Assembly: GCA_017445225.1 (NCBI GenBank)
Contig: JAFSUN010000011.1
Coordinates: forward strand, 124,001-188,000
Length of the DNA: 64,000 nucleotides
Source of the DNA: Erysipelotrichaceae bacterium
GTDB taxonomy: Bacteria > Bacillota_I > Bacilli_A > Erysipelotrichales > Erysipelotrichaceae
Direction: 5' to 3'
In this document: one piece after another, positions 1,186 to 8,578 of the stretch
Layout: every line of letters begins with the position of its first letter
Position numbering within the stretch: position 1 is the stretch's first letter
Made by a program: the position numbers and the translations under genes
The notes under the pieces: generated by a model
Seen by the model: the letters and a program-made list of their open reading frames with translations, nothing else
What the model was told of the DNA's origin: nothing
The model's database searches: none

Positions 1186-1839
1186 TTAAGCAACTAAGCT
1201 TTCTACGTATTCTCTTAAGCTGTCGTCCTGGCAACCGGCACGGAAGCATTCCAGGAAACGAGGAGTAAGAGACTTTCTTACCAGATCCTGATCCAGGCTC
1301 TTCAAGGCCTCCAGAACCGGCTTGGCAATCTGTTCCTTGACTGTGAACAGCATGGCAGCGTTTCTGTTCTGGGATTCCTTGCGTTCAGCCGGATAGCCCA
1401 TTCCCTTTGGTGAACCGAAGGCCGTCTGGAAGACAATCTTCAGGTTGACATCAGCACCCCAGCCGAAGCCCTTGGCATATGGCAGTGCCAGAGCGTTGCC
1501 GTTGTTGATCTGTAAGAACAGGTAGGCATCTGACGGGTCGATGCAGTATCCGCAGACGACACCAGGCATCATATTGCAGGCCATTAAGGCTCCCTGGCCG
1601 GTACCGCAGCCGGTTACGACGAAGTCAACAGCCTTGGAATTGAGCAGTAAAGCGGCCTGAACGCCTATATTCAAATATGTTAAATAGCCTGGTTCACCCA
1701 GCTGCAGAGGAGCTTCTTCGGTATTCATGCCGGTATTATATACGGTATGACCCATTGGTTCAACGACGCCCTTTAAGCAGTCGAGTACGATTGAATTCTT
1801 TGCGGACTGTGAGAATTCATTTATTAAAGCGATTTTCAT
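1186..1839 (-). CDS. RpiB/LacA/LacB-family sugar-phosphate isomerase
   Basis: 217 residues, longer than RpiB or LacA/LacB themselves (about 140-170) but with the same N-terminal core: a nucleotide-like start MKIALINE and the GCGTGQG phosphate/catalytic loop at 77-83, followed by a CNMMPGVVCG segment. The family interconverts aldose and ketose phosphates in the cytosol. The extra C-terminal segment of about 60 residues is typical of a less studied subgroup. The gene sits between the class II aldolase and the GldA-like dehydrogenase, so isomerisation of the PTS-imported sugar phosphate before cleavage is the likely step. Whether it acts on a hexose, pentose or tetrose phosphate is open. Confidence 0.8.
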   Translation of the reverse strand: MKIALINEFSQSAKNSIVLDCLKGVVEPMGHTVYNTGMNTEEAPLQLGEPGYLTYLNIGVQAALLLNSKAVDFVVTGCGTGQGALMACNMMPGVVCGYCIDPSDAYLFLQINNGNALALPYAKGFGWGADVNLKIVFQTAFGSPKGMGYPAERKESQNRNAAMLFTVKEQIAKPVLEALKSLDQDLVRKSLTPRFLECFRAGCQDDSLREYVESLVA

Positions 1840-1902: not shown

Positions 1903-2787
1903 TTACTCCTTACTGCCGTTGTCAGCAGCTTCGAAAGTATAACGATCGTTGGATCCGATGAGCAGAATGTAGTCTTTGACAAACTTCTTAATAGCTGCTT
2001 CCGCAACCATCATGATGTTCAGATAATCTGTGTTCGGTTCGGCTTCCCACTTGGCCTTCATGGCTTTTTCAGCGGCGTGGAAGGCATCCGTGCACACATT
2101 GATCTTGTTGATTCCGCCGGCTACGGCCTTGCGGATGTTCTCTTCGCCTGAGCCTGATCCGCCGTGTAATACTAACGGCATCTTCAGGGCAGCCTTGAGT
2201 TCTGCTAATCTTTCGAAATCCAATACCGGAACATAGCCGGCCGGATATTTTCCATGGGCTGTTCCGATGGCTACGGCCAGAGCATCAACACCGGTCTGCT
2301 TGACAAAGTCAACGGCCTGCTCGACATTGGTATACATGTCGGAAGTTCTGCCGTCACCGTCAGCTGCCTGACCTACATGTCCGAGTTCAGCTTCGCAGCT
2401 GATACCGCTGGCATGAGCCAGATCGGCAACGATGCGGGAACGCTTGACGTTTTCCTCATATGGTAATGAGGAAGCGTCGATCATGACGTTTGTAAAGCCT
2501 CTCTGAATCGCATCAACAGCGGCTTGCAGAGACGGACCGTGGTCGAGATTCAGGCATACAGGAACTGAAGCCTTTTCTGCCATGGCTCTGATCATCGGCA
2601 CCATCTGATCAGGATGGGCCAGTTTTGACATCTGTCCAACACCAAACTGCACAATGATTGGTGAGTGAAGTTCTTCGGCTGCCTCAATGACAGCTCTTGC
2701 CATCTCCATGTTAACGCTGTTGACAGCCATGACTGCATAGCCGTCTCTGTTGGCGTTATCCAAGATGTACTTCATGTTTACATACAT
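1903..2787 (-). CDS. class II (zinc) ketose-bisphosphate aldolase, FbaA/GatY/KbaY type
   Basis: A class II aldolase cleaves a ketose 1,6-bisphosphate or related compound to dihydroxyacetone phosphate and an aldehyde. The 294-residue protein has the catalytic D82 and the zinc ligands H83 (LDHG), H178 (GTAHG) and H208 (LHGG), plus E134 in AELGHVG. Length matches the family. It follows the PTS EIIC gene and precedes an RpiB-type isomerase in one operon, so it is a catabolic aldolase for the imported sugar rather than the glycolytic enzyme. The first ATG is kept, but an internal ATG at residue 5 is also possible. Whether it prefers fructose-, tagatose- or another bisphosphate cannot be decided here. 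Confidence 0.88.
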   Translation of the reverse strand: MYVNMKYILDNANRDGYAVMAVNSVNMEMARAVIEAAEELHSPIIVQFGVGQMSKLAHPDQMVPMIRAMAEKASVPVCLNLDHGPSLQAAVDAIQRGFTNVMIDASSLPYEENVKRSRIVADLAHASGISCEAELGHVGQAADGDGRTSDMYTNVEQAVDFVKQTGVDALAVAIGTAHGKYPAGYVPVLDFERLAELKAALKMPLVLHGGSGSGEENIRKAVAGGINKINVCTDAFHAAEKAMKAKWEAEPNTDYLNIMMVAEAAIKKFVKDYILLIGSNDRYTFEAADNGSKE

Positions 2788-2825: not shown

Positions 2826-3941
2826 CTAGAAGTCGATGTCGAGATCTACTACTTCTTCTTCTTTTACTTCTTCTTTTGATGGTTCTCTCTTCAGTACAGC
2901 GTATAATACACCGGTGATTACTGAACCGATTGCGCAGCACAGTACCCATAATAATGGCTTATTTGACATAGGCATTACTAAGATACCACCGTGTGATGCA
3001 GGAGTACCAACACCGAAGGCCATGGCTAAGCCGGAGGCGACAGCGGAACCAACCATACATGATCCAACAACTCTGATCGGATCTTCAGCAACGAACGGTA
3101 AGACACCTTCAGTGATGAAGCATAAGCCCATCGGTAAGCAGGTGTAAGCAGCGTTCTTCTGCTGTTCAGTGAACTTCTTCGGAGCAATGATAGCAGCTAA
3201 GCCCATGCCGATAGCCGGAGTCATACCACCGATGATCTTGGCTGTTTCAGCAGCAGCACCGATGCCATCGATTTCCGGATGGTCAGCATACAGAGCATTG
3301 GCGGCCATTGAAGCGGTCTTGTTGATAGGACCACCCATGTCGAAGCCCATGCAGGCACCGATAACAGCACCAACAACGAATAATGAACCGGTTGATAAGC
3401 TTTCGATCCACTTCTGGAAGGCGATCATCAGCAGTGATAATGGCTTCATTAATACGCCGAAGAATAAGAAGGTAGCGAACATGGTTCCTAATACCGGAAT
3501 GATCAGTACTGGCATTAAGCCCTGTAAAGCCTTTGGCAGCTTCCAGCTCTTTACCCAGTTGACGAAATATCCAACAACGAAGCCCATTAACATGGCGCCT
3601 ACGAAACCGGTCTTGGTCGGGCCGCCGGCGAAGTAACCGATGGCGAAGCCAGGAACGATACCAGGTCTGTCAGAAATGGAGAAGGCGATACCGGCGCATA
3701 AGAATGCATATGCCCAGTTGAAGCCATTGCTGTTCATTTCACCCAGCATGTGGAAATAGTCGCTGATCTTTAAGATTGAATAACCTGAGTAGTTTAAGCC
3801 CTTAATTGTCGGTTCTGACAGCGGAACACCGTCCCACTTGTACATCTTCTGGAAAGCGCCTAAGATACCGGCCATAACAACCATTGGGATCAAGAATGAG
3901 ATACCTGTTAATACATGTTTTCTCAAATCCTTAAATTTCAT
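2826..3941 (-). CDS. PTS fructose-family transporter subunit EIIC
   Basis: Hydrophobic 371-residue integral membrane protein with many alternating membrane segments from residue 12 on (LTGISFLIPMVVMAG is the first). It has the GGPINK and ASHGG-type loops of fructose-family EIIC. It moves the sugar across the membrane while EIIB phosphorylates it. EIIB, EIIC and EIIA are separate polypeptides here, whereas many FruA proteins are fused. The last ten codons encode a highly acidic tail ending VDLDIDF, which is nearly identical to the end of the EIIA protein at 4433 (see findings). The gene lies 22 bases downstream of EIIB with an AAAAGGAG site. Confidence 0.9.
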   Translation of the reverse strand: MKFKDLRKHVLTGISFLIPMVVMAGILGAFQKMYKWDGVPLSEPTIKGLNYSGYSILKISDYFHMLGEMNSNGFNWAYAFLCAGIAFSISDRPGIVPGFAIGYFAGGPTKTGFVGAMLMGFVVGYFVNWVKSWKLPKALQGLMPVLIIPVLGTMFATFLFFGVLMKPLSLLMIAFQKWIESLSTGSLFVVGAVIGACMGFDMGGPINKTASMAANALYADHPEIDGIGAAAETAKIIGGMTPAIGMGLAAIIAPKKFTEQQKNAAYTCLPMGLCFITEGVLPFVAEDPIRVVGSCMVGSAVASGLAMAFGVGTPASHGGILVMPMSNKPLLWVLCCAIGSVITGVLYAVLKREPSKEEVKEEEVVDLDIDF

Positions 3942-3963
3942 TTTGAATTCTCCTTTTTTTTTC

Positions 3964-4278
3964 TTATTTTTGAGCTAATTTCTTTTCGATCGTTGCAATC
4001 AAGCTCTTTGGCTGCTTTAAGGCAACACTGATTGGAACATCAACGATCCTCTTGCCTGCAAAACGTTCCTGATCACGGATGGCGATGTCGTGTGCATAGA
4101 TGACAACATCAGCCGCCTGGGCTTCTTCAGGAGTGATTCTGTTCTGAACACCCACCGTTCCCTGGGTTTCAACCTTACACCAATGTCCTGCTTCTTCAGC
4201 AGCAGTCTGAATCTTTTCAGCAACGATGTAAGTGTGAGCAATACCAGCAGTGCAAGCAGTTACAGCTACAATCTTCAT
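3964..4278 (-). CDS. PTS fructose-family phosphotransfer subunit EIIB
   Basis: 104-residue EIIB domain standing alone. The N-terminus has the phosphoryl-accepting cysteine at residue 9 in CTAGIAHTY, matching the CPTGIAHT consensus of the fructose family except for one Pro-to-Ala change. It receives phosphate from EIIA and passes it to the sugar bound by EIIC. The Shine-Dalgarno is AAAGGAG. A 154-base gap with a possible internal promoter separates it from the upstream EIIA gene. Confidence 0.92.
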   Translation of the reverse strand: MKIVAVTACTAGIAHTYIVAEKIQTAAEEAGHWCKVETQGTVGVQNRITPEEAQAADVVIYAHDIAIRDQERFAGKRIVDVPISVALKQPKSLIATIEKKLAQK

Positions 4279-4312
4279 ATAGATAGTCTCCTTTCGTTTT
4301 AGCTACATACCT

Positions 4313-4318
4313 ATTCTA
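4313..4318 (-). promoter_or_regulatory. possible internal extended -10 promoter before EIIB
   Basis: On the minus strand the sequence TGTTAGAAT provides an extended -10 (TAGAAT) about 35 bases before the EIIB start, with a poor TTTTAC-like -35 upstream. It could allow separate expression of EIIB, EIIC and the downstream enzymes. Confidence 0.35.
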
Positions 4319-4432
4319 ACACAACCGACGAACCGTAAAAGATTATTTTGATAAAGTTCAAAAGAATTTTCACAGATAATCGAAGTGTTTGAGGACTTAT
4401 TGATATGGTTTTGATCACTTATTGATGATTTT

Positions 4433-4966
4433 CTAGAAATCAATGTCGAGATCGACGATTTCCTCTGTATCTTTCAGCTCAGTTCCTTCGAGTTCAGACT
4501 CATCACAGAGGATCAGATCGATCACTTCCTGCTTGGTTGTGGCATCAGCCAGTCGGGCTACGCGGGCGTCATTGCCCAGCTTGCCGGCCAGCTCGCTTAA
4601 CAGCATCATGTGATTGGTGGCGAATTCGGCATCAGCACTGACGCAGAACAGGAATATCAGTCTGGTATCCTGCCAGCCATCCTCGGTCATTCCGGTCTCC
4701 CATTTTACCGGGTTAAGGGTTCTTCCAATGCAGATTCCGATCTTCTGAACGCTTTCACTCTTACCATGGGGAATGGAAATGTGGCTTCCCATGCCGGTCG
4801 GGCCTTCCGCCTCGCGGACGTAGATGTCGGATACGAACTGATCAACATCGTTGATATAGCCATTGTCGTAAAGATCTCTGGCCATGTAACGCAGTACTTC
4901 ATCCTTGGTATTTCCCTTTACTTCCAGGTCAATAATGTCAGGATTCAGAATATCAATTAATGGCAT
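4433..4966 (-). CDS. PTS fructose/mannitol-family EIIA
   Basis: 177-residue EIIA domain. The active histidine is H67 in SIPHGKS, preceded by GPTGMGSH, exactly the fructose/mannitol EIIA pattern. It takes phosphate from HPr. The frame is open to 5023, but the ATG at 4966 has AAAGGAG seven bases upstream and begins with MPLIDILNP, the usual family start. The C-terminus continues beyond the ordinary EIIA fold as an acidic linker and ends VDLDIDF, the same tail as EIIC. It is the first gene of the minus-strand sugar operon, next to the DeoR regulator gene. Confidence 0.9.
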   Translation of the reverse strand: MPLIDILNPDIIDLEVKGNTKDEVLRYMARDLYDNGYINDVDQFVSDIYVREAEGPTGMGSHISIPHGKSESVQKIGICIGRTLNPVKWETGMTEDGWQDTRLIFLFCVSADAEFATNHMMLLSELAGKLGNDARVARLADATTKQEVIDLILCDESELEGTELKDTEEIVDLDIDF

Positions 4967-5136: not shown

Positions 5137-5889
5137 TCAGAAAATGACCTTGATCTGATTACTGTCAAATATCCTCATGTATCTTTCCGAAGGCTGCCGG
5201 TCAGTGATGACGGCATTGATGTCCGCATAATCCGCAAAGTGGTTGAAGGCGATGACATCAAACTTGGAATGATCAGCGACGATGTACACCTTGGAACTGT
5301 GTTCGATGGCATGCTGCTTCATCTGCCCTTCATGCAGATTGGTATTGGTGAAGCTGCGGCTGACGGAAATGCCGACGGTGGAGATGAATGACTTGTTATA
5401 GTTATAAGGATAGTAACTTGTATCTACCAGGAAAGTTGCCGAATCCGTCATCAGGGTACCGCCGCTGCAGACACCGGTTATCGTCGGATATTCCAGCAGG
5501 GTATTCATGACATCCAGGGAATGAGAAATGACGGTCACGTTCTTCTTATTCTTAAGGAAAGGGATCATACGGTAAGCCGTAGTGCCGGAATCGATGAAGA
5601 TGACATCGCCATCGGCGACCTGATCGGCAGCCAGCCTGCCGATGTACTCCTTCTCCTTCGAGGAAACATTCTTTCTTTCCATTATCGGTGAAACCACGTT
5701 CTTCTGATCGTTGGTGTTGTAGACGACGCCACCGTAAACCTTGGAGACGATCCCCTGCTCTTCCAGAGTCTTGAGATCTCTTCGTAAGGTCTGGATGGAG
5801 ATGTTGAAAATGCTTAAGAGTTCATCGTTGCTGACAGAGGCATGCTCCTTGATGTACTCCTCCATTTCCTTGATTCTTCCATATTTCAT
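5137..5889 (-). CDS. DeoR-family sugar-phosphate-responsive transcriptional repressor
   Basis: 250-residue regulator with an N-terminal DeoR helix-turn-helix (residues about 19-55, SIQTLRRDLKTLEEQG) and a C-terminal ribose-5-phosphate-isomerase-like effector domain (DGDVIFIDSGTTAYRMI, then TNLHEG and VADHSKFD). Proteins of this type normally repress a sugar operon until a sugar phosphate binds. The ATG at 5889 was chosen over 5919 because GAGGTGATAAG precedes it and MKYGRIKEM is the usual family start. The gene lies between the PTS operon and the divergent transaldolase operon, so it probably controls both and itself. Confidence 0.9.
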   Translation of the reverse strand: MKYGRIKEMEEYIKEHASVSNDELLSIFNISIQTLRRDLKTLEEQGIVSKVYGGVVYNTNDQKNVVSPIMERKNVSSKEKEYIGRLAADQVADGDVIFIDSGTTAYRMIPFLKNKKNVTVISHSLDVMNTLLEYPTITGVCSGGTLMTDSATFLVDTSYYPYNYNKSFISTVGISVSRSFTNTNLHEGQMKQHAIEHSSKVYIVADHSKFDVIAFNHFADYADINAVITDRQPSERYMRIFDSNQIKVIF

Positions 5890-5917
5890 TCTTATCACCT
5901 CTAAATTGGATTTATAC

Positions 5918-5966
5918 ACTTATTATACTGACTTGTTCAAAAAATTATCAATTAATTGAGTAATTT
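5918..5966. promoter_or_regulatory. divergent regulatory region with AT-rich palindromic operator
   Basis: A 25-base near-palindrome at 5942-5966 (AAATTA, then the perfect TCAATTAATTGA, then G, then TAATTT) lies between deoR and the transaldolase gene. On the minus strand it overlaps a TTGATA -35 that is 18 bases from TATAAT, the likely deoR promoter. The position suits autoregulation by the DeoR protein. Confidence 0.6.
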
Positions 5967-5997: not shown

Positions 5998-7053
5998 ATG
6001 AACAAATTACACGAAACTGTCATCAAATTCCCTCAGACCGAAGTCTGGAACGACTCCTGCTCATGCCGTGAACTGGCCTATGCCATTGAAAATGGCGCTT
6101 CCGGAGCCACCACCAACCCGGTCATCGTCGGCAACGTCCTGAAGAATGAACTCCCGGAATGGGAAGACACCATCAGAAAGATCATCGCTGACAATCCGAG
6201 CTTCACTGAAGATGAAGTATCCTGGGCAGTCATCAAGGCTCTGGGTTCCAAGGCCGCCGGACTTCTGCTCCCGCAGTATAAGGCTACTCACGGTCAGAAG
6301 GGACGCATTTCCTTCCAGACCAACGCCAAGTTCTACCGCAACAGAGACAAGATGGTTGAACAGGCCTGTGAACTGGCAGCTGTCGTGGAAAACAGCCAGA
6401 TCAAGGCTCCAGCCAGCAAGGCCGGCATTGAAGCCTTTGAAGAACTGACCTACAGAGGAATCTCCATTAACGCTACCGTTTCCTTCACCTGCGCTCAGGC
6501 TGTCAAGGTTGCCGAAGCCGTTGAAAGAGGCCTGGCCAGAAGAGAAGCCGAAGGCAAGGATACCAGCTGGATGCACCCGGTCTGCACCATCATGATCGGA
6601 CGTACCGATGACTATCTCAAGAGCTGGATGAAGGGCCATGATGTCCTGATCTCCTCCGAAGCTCTGGAAATGGCCGGCGTTGCCGTCATGAAGAATGCCT
6701 ATCGTATTTATAAGGAAAAAGGCTTCCGCACCAAGCTGCTGGTTGCTGCCTTCCGTAATCAGAATCACTTCGAACAGTTCATCGGCGGTGACATCGTTCT
6801 CACCATCCCCTATGGCTGGCAGAAGAAGTACAACAATTCTTCAGTAGAGATCAAGGAAAACATGTCTGCTCCTGTTGATCAGAAGATCATCGATGAGCTG
6901 ATGCAGTATGAAGAATTCCGCAAGTCCTATCTGCCGGATGGCCTGCAGCCGGAAGAATTCGAGCACTACGGCGCCTTCCTGGCTACCATGAACCAGTTCC
7001 TGGGCGGCTATGATTCACTTGTTCAGCTGATCAGAAAGTACATGATCGTATAA
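5998..7053 (+). CDS. transaldolase-family protein
   Basis: 351-residue member of the transaldolase (class I aldolase) family. The N-terminal GATTNPVIV (36-44) and the Schiff-base lysine K136 in QIKAPASKAGI are both present. Transaldolases move a dihydroxyacetone unit between sugar phosphates. This protein is longer than the ~215-residue FSA/TalC type. It begins after a strong AAAGGAG and is followed after 16 bases by an aldehyde dehydrogenase gene. That pairing suggests release of an aldehyde that is then oxidised. Together with the divergent PTS, isomerase and aldolase it belongs to one catabolic locus whose sugar is unknown. Confidence 0.85.
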   Translation: MNKLHETVIKFPQTEVWNDSCSCRELAYAIENGASGATTNPVIVGNVLKNELPEWEDTIRKIIADNPSFTEDEVSWAVIKALGSKAAGLLLPQYKATHGQKGRISFQTNAKFYRNRDKMVEQACELAAVVENSQIKAPASKAGIEAFEELTYRGISINATVSFTCAQAVKVAEAVERGLARREAEGKDTSWMHPVCTIMIGRTDDYLKSWMKGHDVLISSEALEMAGVAVMKNAYRIYKEKGFRTKLLVAAFRNQNHFEQFIGGDIVLTIPYGWQKKYNNSSVEIKENMSAPVDQKIIDELMQYEEFRKSYLPDGLQPEEFEHYGAFLATMNQFLGGYDSLVQLIRKYMIV

Positions 7054-7069
7054 TTGGGGGTAATGAAAA

Positions 7070-8578
7070 ATGGAAAAAAAGAAATACTGCGTAAACGGAA
7101 TCTGGAAAGAATCCAAGACTGATAAATACATGGAAGTAACCAACTCATCTACCGGTGAAGTCATGGCCTTAGTCCCCTGCTGCACTGCCGATGAAGTTGA
7201 AGAAGCCATCGCTTCTGCTGATGAAGCATTCAAGACCTGGTCAAGAATGCCGTTAGGCAGAAGAACTCAGATGATGTTCAACTGGCGTAATGTCCTGATG
7301 AACCATCTGGAAGAACTGACCGTTCTCTGTTCCATGGAGTTGGGCAAGAACCTCAACGAAGCCAGAGGCGACGTTCTGAAGGCCATTGAGCCGACGGAAT
7401 TTGCCTGCGGCATTTCCTACAGTTCTCAGGGTGTTGCTTCCCTGCAGGTAACCAACGGCTTTGATACCGCCAGTTACCGGATGCCGTTAGGCGTCGTAGC
7501 CGGCATCTGCCCATTCAACTTCCCGGCCATGATCCCCTGGGGATGGATGGTACCGCTGGCCATCGCTACCGGCAATACCGTGGTCTTAAAGGCCGCCAGC
7601 CAGACTCCGTTAACCTCCATGAGGATCCTGGAACTGTTCTATACCGAAGGTAATTTCCCGGCCGGTGTCGTCAACCTGGTTACCACTGACCGTAACAACG
7701 CCGAGATCCTGCTGACCGACAGCCGCATCAAGGCCGTCACCTTCGTCGGCACCACCGCTGTTGGCAAGCATGTCTACTCAACCGCTGCCGCTCATGGCAA
7801 GCGTGTTCAGGCTCAGACCGAAGCCAAGAACCACTGTCTGGTTCTCGAAGACTGCAATCTCGAAGCCACAGTCAACGCCATCATCAACTCCACCTACGGC
7901 TGCTCCGGCATGCGCTGCATGGCCTTACCGGTCGTCGTTGTTCAGAACAGCATCGCCGATAAGCTGGTTGCCATGTTAAAGGAAAAAGCTCAGAAGATGG
8001 TCATCGGCTGCTCCTACGATGAAAAGACCCAGCTGGGTGCCGTCGTCAGCCAGAAGCATAAGGAATCCATCTGCCGCTGGATCCAGAAGGGCATCGATGA
8101 GGGTGCTACCCTGGTACTTGATGGCCGTGACGTGGTTGTCGAAGGCTATGAAAATGGTTTCTTCGTCGGCCCGACCATCCTGGATAACGTTACTGAAGAC
8201 ATGACCGTCGGTAACAGAGAGATCTTCGGACCGGTCACCTGCATCAAGAGAGTTGAAAACTACGAGGAAGGCATCCGGATCATGAACAACAATCCGTTCG
8301 CCAACGGCTCTGCCATCTTCACTCAGAGCGGCTACTATGCCAGAAGATTTGAGATGGATACCGATGGCGGCATGGTCGGCATCAATGTCGGCATCCCGGT
8401 ACCGAGTGCCTACTTCCCCTTCTCCGGCAATAAGGACTCCTTCTTCGGCGATCAGCACGTCTTAGGTCTGGACGGCGTCCGTTTCTTCACCAGAGCAAAG
8501 ACCGTTACCAAGCATTGGTACGATGAAGAAGCCGCCAAGAGAAAGATGGATACCTGGGAAGGTACCGTTGAAAGATAG
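7070..8578 (+). CDS. aldehyde dehydrogenase, methylmalonate-semialdehyde dehydrogenase (MmsA/IolA)-like
   Basis: 502-residue aldehyde dehydrogenase. The catalytic cysteine is C283 in GCSGMRCMALP, which closely follows the GQRCMAL signature of the CoA-acylating methylmalonate-semialdehyde branch. The PFNFPAMIPWG segment (148-158) and the AKNH box also match that branch. Members oxidise semialdehydes, often to acyl-CoA, with NAD. No inositol or valine catabolic genes are nearby. The neighbouring transaldolase gene and 16-base spacing instead suggest a role in oxidising the aldehyde fragment of a sugar or sugar acid. The substrate and CoA dependence are inferred. Confidence 0.85.
   Translation: MEKKKYCVNGIWKESKTDKYMEVTNSSTGEVMALVPCCTADEVEEAIASADEAFKTWSRMPLGRRTQMMFNWRNVLMNHLEELTVLCSMELGKNLNEARGDVLKAIEPTEFACGISYSSQGVASLQVTNGFDTASYRMPLGVVAGICPFNFPAMIPWGWMVPLAIATGNTVVLKAASQTPLTSMRILELFYTEGNFPAGVVNLVTTDRNNAEILLTDSRIKAVTFVGTTAVGKHVYSTAAAHGKRVQAQTEAKNHCLVLEDCNLEATVNAIINSTYGCSGMRCMALPVVVVQNSIADKLVAMLKEKAQKMVIGCSYDEKTQLGAVVSQKHKESICRWIQKGIDEGATLVLDGRDVVVEGYENGFFVGPTILDNVTEDMTVGNREIFGPVTCIKRVENYEEGIRIMNNNPFANGSAIFTQSGYYARRFEMDTDGGMVGINVGIPVPSAYFPFSGNKDSFFGDQHVLGLDGVRFFTRAKTVTKHWYDEEAAKRKMDTWEGTVER

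Follow-up and report, generated by a model that had tools for sequence, protein, structure and literature searches.

A C-terminal peptide common to the standalone EIIC and EIIA of a split fructose-family PTS from an Erysipelotrichaceae bacterium: a possible docking motif for the separate EIIB

In the FruA permeases of the PTS (EIIBC or EIIABC fusions) the domains are covalently linked, and EIIC ends a few residues past its last membrane helix, without a tail. In split permeases, where EIIA, EIIB and EIIC are not fused, the way in which they come together is little described in the literature searched. The PTS described here has the same EIIA, EIIB and EIIC domain families and the same presumed phosphotransfer chain as FruA. 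Its subunits are separate chains, and its EIIC and EIIA end in nearly the same acidic and hydrophobic peptide. No published description of EIIC tails or of EIIB docking was found in a literature search that had most subscription journals outside its reach.

The window analysed comprises 64,000 nucleotides of contig JAFSUN010000011.1 (positions 124,001 to 188,000), and all genes of the operon lie on its minus strand. The PTS genes encode a standalone fructose-family EIIC of 371 amino acids (2826..3941 with the stop codon; TIGR01427, E 9e-75), a fructose-type EIIB of 104 amino acids (3964..4278; PF02302, E 8.5e-22, and TIGR00829) and a fructose-type EIIA of 177 amino acids (4433..4966; PF00359, E 3.1e-33, and TIGR00848). 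EIIA starts with the ATG at 4966, and its reading frame is open to 5023. All three scored above the curated cut-offs: 252 bits against 157.6 for EIIC (TIGR01427), 99 against 76.9 for EIIB (TIGR00829) and 106.8 against 103.5 for EIIA (TIGR00848). The active-site Cys of EIIB lies in the P-loop CxxGIAHTY, in which C9, G12 and A14-Y17 were invariant among 58 EIIBs, and the active-site His of EIIA is conserved in IPHGKS (H67 invariant). A DeoR-family regulator (5137..5919; PF00455, PF08220) is encoded upstream of the PTS genes. The operon also encodes a class II FBP/tagatose-bisphosphate-type aldolase (1903..2787; PF01116, E 1.2e-92), which has no VDLDIDF-type tail, an RpiB/LacAB-family isomerase-like protein (1186..1839; PF02502, NF006753) and a GldA-like dehydrogenase (79-1179). 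A divergent gene pair at 5998-8578, facing the operon of the aldolase, the isomerase-like and the GldA-like protein, encodes a transaldolase-like protein of 351 amino acids, which scored under every transaldolase cut-off, and a methylmalonate-semialdehyde-type aldehyde dehydrogenase; with these operon enzymes the pair would make up an unassigned sugar pathway.

The EIIC tail EEEVVDLDIDF (2829..2861, minus strand) follows the last membrane helix; its last ten codons (2829-2858, GAAGAAGTAGTAGATCTCGACATCGACTTC) encode EEVVDLDIDF and are preceded by one further E. The EIIA tail EEIVDLDIDF is encoded by GAGGAAATCGTCGATCTCGACATTGATTTC (4436-4465, minus strand). Over these ten codons the tails show four purely synonymous differences and one V/I exchange. 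Both reading frames and both near-identical ends were thus found where an earlier note, made from the DNA letters, had placed them; its span (2826-4495) takes in EIIC and EIIB but reaches only about 20 codons into the end of EIIA. EIIB, encoded between the two, ends EKKLAQK and has no tail. A search of the genome (about 1 Mb) found DLDIDF followed by a stop codon at the ends of EIIC and EIIA only, with no match for the reversed control, while a loose form of the motif was too unspecific at this scale (244 matches against 115 for the reversed form).

The AlphaFold model of EIIC had a mean pLDDT of 83.9, with residues 360-371 below 50. Its fold matched the PTS IIC and IICB chains 9a6a, 8qsr, 9a3b and 3qnq (glucose IICB, ChbC), and a sequence search found no solved EIIC of the fructose family. 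The EIIA model had a mean pLDDT of 90.7 (core 90+), falling over residues 161-177 to 65 and then 44 by blocks. Both tails are thus predicted to be unpacked and disordered. EIIB has the solved relatives 2m1z, 2r48, 5dle, 2r4q, 2kyr and 4tn5 in the PDB.

A DNA-level search for EE(I/V)VDLDI(D/N) in 316 genomes of the order gave 46 matches in 32 genomes, and the reversed pattern gave none in the same genomes. All 30 loci fetched from these matches were EIIC or EIIA of this fructose-family PTS, and in 14 genomes the exact pattern found both tails together, about 1.6 kb apart. The last ten residues had a mean pairwise identity of 0.82 among 22 distinct EIIC tails and 0.92 among 17 distinct EIIA tails, whereas the ten residues ahead of the tail reached only 0.44 and 0.28, respectively, between species. 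Identical tail codons differed synonymously in 42% of comparisons for EIIC and 53% for EIIA. In an alignment of 19 EIICs (48-100% identity) E361-E363 and L367-D368-I369 were invariant. A recent conversion of one tail by the other was considered and rejected: their nucleotide identity was 0.795 within a genome and 0.786 between genomes (permutation p 0.24), which means that there was no recent copying. The peptides have been kept although their linkers and synonymous codons have changed, and recent copying does not account for this; the sequence comparisons therefore indicate purifying selection on the tail peptide of both EIIC and EIIA. The earlier note's preference for selection on the peptide over recent copying is borne out.

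The closest named locus outside the source genome belongs to an uncultured Erysipelotrichaceae MAG, with an EIIC 81% identical. EIIC ends in EEEIVDLDIN(L/I) in Holdemania-like and Traorella relatives, in EEEIVEMDIDF in Collinsella massiliensis and in EEEIVELDISVSIE in Anaerotalea. The canonical EIIA tail is present in close genera and diverged in Traorella (EDENFDVDINFS) and in another genus (AEEFDESLISF); it is absent from relatives in Holdemania, Collinsella and one more genus. In one genus (L283, L286 and L010) the EIIC tails have drifted (EEDVSDDMDININ, EEEISEELDIDIK, EEEVTDDLDINIR; SDDMDININ, SEELDIDIK, TDDLDINIR), while the EIIAs of the same operons still end in EEIVDLDI(D/N). An EIIA tail without an EIIC tail was never seen where both genes were readable, and most systems with a tailed EIIC have an EIIA without a tail. 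Judged by this distribution, the EIIC tail is the older and wider of the two, and the EIIA tail a later and narrower gain in the Erysipelotrichaceae lineage. Chance similarity, which the earlier note would have read from a tail missing in close homologues of both proteins, does not fit with tails on both across several genera. The note did not notice that standalone EIICs bear an old and widespread tail, nor that the tail of EIIA came later and is more restricted.

To classify EIICs more widely, 202 non-identical standalone and fused sequences were scored with a loose rule, which asked for 12 or more residues beyond the last helix, a net acidic charge and an acidic-hydrophobic-polar-hydrophobic pattern near the end. 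Of the 115 standalone EIICs 72 had the alternating tail, whereas it was absent from all of the about 86 EIIB-fused EIICs whose C-terminus is free. Among fused proteins L201 alone matched the rule, and this match is an artefact; the protein has the order EIIB-EIIC-EIIA, with the EIIA domain behind the last EIIC helix. In an earlier set of 169 EIICs the median number of residues after LKK was 5 in fused and 19 in standalone proteins. Tailed standalone EIICs include E. coli K-12 FrwC, which ends EDDLDLDFEIN, and Lactobacillaceae proteins ending DDLDIDIQL and HDLDISIEI. The other 43 standalone EIICs had no alternating acidic tail; separate EIIBs can therefore do without it. At five loci with an untailed EIIC (L024, L029, L030, L031 and L186) the standalone EIIBs are nested in the fused EIIBC clade and bear a C-terminal extension that is basic and amphipathic (KSFFGNLFKK, GFFAKLFKKK). 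It may be a membrane anchor and thus an alternative way of keeping EIIB near EIIC.

Tail labels were strongly clustered on the tree, with about 7-8 changes, so fusion and tail cannot be counted as independent observations. This clustering would also suit a clade signature of no specific function, that is, a weakly constrained acidic disordered end on EIIC which EIIA copied or converged on by accident, and so would the finding that 7.6% of unrelated ORFs satisfy the loose rule taken alone. Such an origin is nevertheless very unlikely, as a near-invariant peptide stands beside a free linker in both proteins, with synonymous sites saturated and no copying within the genome. The alternation also goes beyond composition: 45 non-redundant tails contained 78 hydrophobic-polar-hydrophobic triples, compared with 33 in shuffled sequences.

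As the candidate partner of the tail, EIIB was compared between systems with tailed EIICs, untailed standalone EIICs and fused EIICs. The proposed binding site is the basic C-terminal helix, residues 89-104 (QPKSLIATIEKKLAQK; 3967..4014, minus strand), with I97, K100 and L101. Residue 97 was I, V, L, C or M in 69 of 70 EIIBs beside tailed EIICs but in only 8 of 38 beside untailed standalone ones, and was Ala in 69 of 87 fused EIIBs. The net charge of segment 86-104 was +2.8, -0.4 and -0.1 in the three classes, the fused EIIBs resembling the untailed standalone set in both respects. Beside tailed EIICs residue 101 was aliphatic or aromatic and residue 100 often K, and K22 in helix 1 was K or R in 54 of 70 systems against 2 of 38 untailed ones. 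A class difference of at least 0.5 was seen at 7 of 103 positions in EIIB, compared with 2 of 147 for EIIA and 7 of 322 for the core of EIIC, and the strongest tail-linked positions of EIIB, including 92, 97, 100 and 101, gathered in the last helix. The EIIB fold has helix 1 and the last helix packed on the same side of its sheet, and residues of the K22, 97, 100 and 101 type could therefore form one groove. Further loci, among them E. coli FrwC/FrwB and Lactobacillaceae, were added after the site had been chosen; the expected pattern held at 8 of 8 tailed loci, three of which are near-identical, and at 4 of 5 untailed ones.

Among independent pairs, only three of them well supported, EIIB residue 97 changed with the tail in 1.9 and the opposite way in 0; helix charge did not follow the tail, with 0.6 the same way and 1.0 the opposite way. 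With three supported pairs both comparisons were underpowered. Pagel tests of the tail against EIIB positions gave p values from 1e-3 to 2e-6, which do not single out EIIB because EIIA positions chosen identically reached an equal LR (18.9). Since tailed EIICs group together on the tree and independent pairs are few, the association between tail and EIIB may come from co-inheritance. The case that now remains for EIIB as the probable partner is the density of tail-linked positions and their clustering in one helix.

Docking is the best supported reading, at about even odds: the tail would act within the enzyme II complex as a flexible peptide that docks on the separate EIIB, with EIIA having gained the same peptide. 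The acidic EIIC tail with its alternating hydrophobic residues would bind the basic, aliphatic C-terminal helix of EIIB, with K22 of helix 1 perhaps joining in, and the bound tail would keep EIIB close to the active site of EIIC. It would do the job of the covalent B-C fusion in FruA-type proteins: where B and C form one chain no tail would be needed, and where they are separate chains the hook would hold EIIB. Since EIIA must also meet EIIB, it is proposed that EIIA later gained the same hook in the Erysipelotrichaceae lineage; phospho-EIIA would dock at the same EIIB site, and EIIB would be handed between EIIA and EIIC through the exchange of identical hooks. The traits of a short linear motif are present, namely predicted disorder and a conserved peptide beside a variable linker. 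More tentatively, and with some doubt, identical EIIC and EIIA hooks may alternate in one EIIB groove, in which case the exchange of peptides, in place of domain fusion, would organise the phosphate relay; the tails of standalone fructose-like EIICs, with FrwC among them, would then be this hook in its general form.

The tail might instead contact the EIIA or EIIC core, in EIIC dimer assembly or transporter regulation, the EIIA tail being a mimic that competes for the cytoplasmic face of EIIC. Identical peptides on two partners would suit competition for one site, and every tailed system has an EIIC. In the AlphaFold models, however, neither tail is packed (pLDDT below 50), the tail is missing from fused EIICs that have the same fold, and the tail-linked signal is weaker in the EIIA and EIIC cores, which makes such a contact quite improbable. 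A common third partner, such as HPr, EI, one of two operon enzymes (the aldolase or the isomerase) or a scaffold serving the whole cell, could gather EIIA and EIIC without EIIB. EIIA and EIIC being tailed and EIIB not is what two clients of one external receptor would show, and the aldolase and isomerase genes adjoin the PTS genes. The enzymes neighbouring tailed EIICs differ, however (pfl genes in E. coli frw, gnd/ulaD in Lactobacillus), EIIA is untailed in most tailed systems, and wherever EIIC is tailed, EIIB is a separate chain with a last helix unlike that of untailed systems; we therefore regard a third partner as unlikely. A degradation or localisation signal common to both subunits would explain the C-terminal placement and allow their joint turnover, but we give it hardly any weight. 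The last residues of the tail vary (F, L, I or V), with polar residues after them in some cases (INFS, INIR, DIRIE), the motif occurs nowhere else in the genome, whereas degrons usually serve many proteins, and its distribution follows the separate-EIIB arrangement. The earlier note had proposed a shared docking or degradation signal; docking is the better supported half, with EIIB the likely partner, and the degradation half is unsupported because of the variable ends. If the docking motif is real, a conserved and portable ten-residue hook would explain how split PTS subunits meet, and its recognisable sequence would help to pair each EIIB with its EIIC among the numerous paralogues of gut bacteria.

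The system from E. coli, FrwC/FrwB (PRK10478 EIIC and PRK10474 EIIB), resembles the source PTS in its standalone EIIC with an acidic alternating tail and in its EIIB, which is a separate chain with I at position 97. It differs in having no tailed standalone EIIA beside it and in the sequence of the FrwC tail, which is not VDLDIDF, and the source proteins score under the NCBIfam cut-offs of the PRK10478 and PRK10474 equivalogs. The C-terminal tip of SSB, acidic residues followed by a hydrophobic end, docks on basic and hydrophobic pockets of its partners. It is a disordered acidic-hydrophobic C-terminal docking peptide, as is proposed for the PTS tail, so that the analogy is one of how the two would work. 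The SSB tip is not homologous to the PTS tail, whose last residue is not fixed and whose hydrophobic residues alternate as in a strand.
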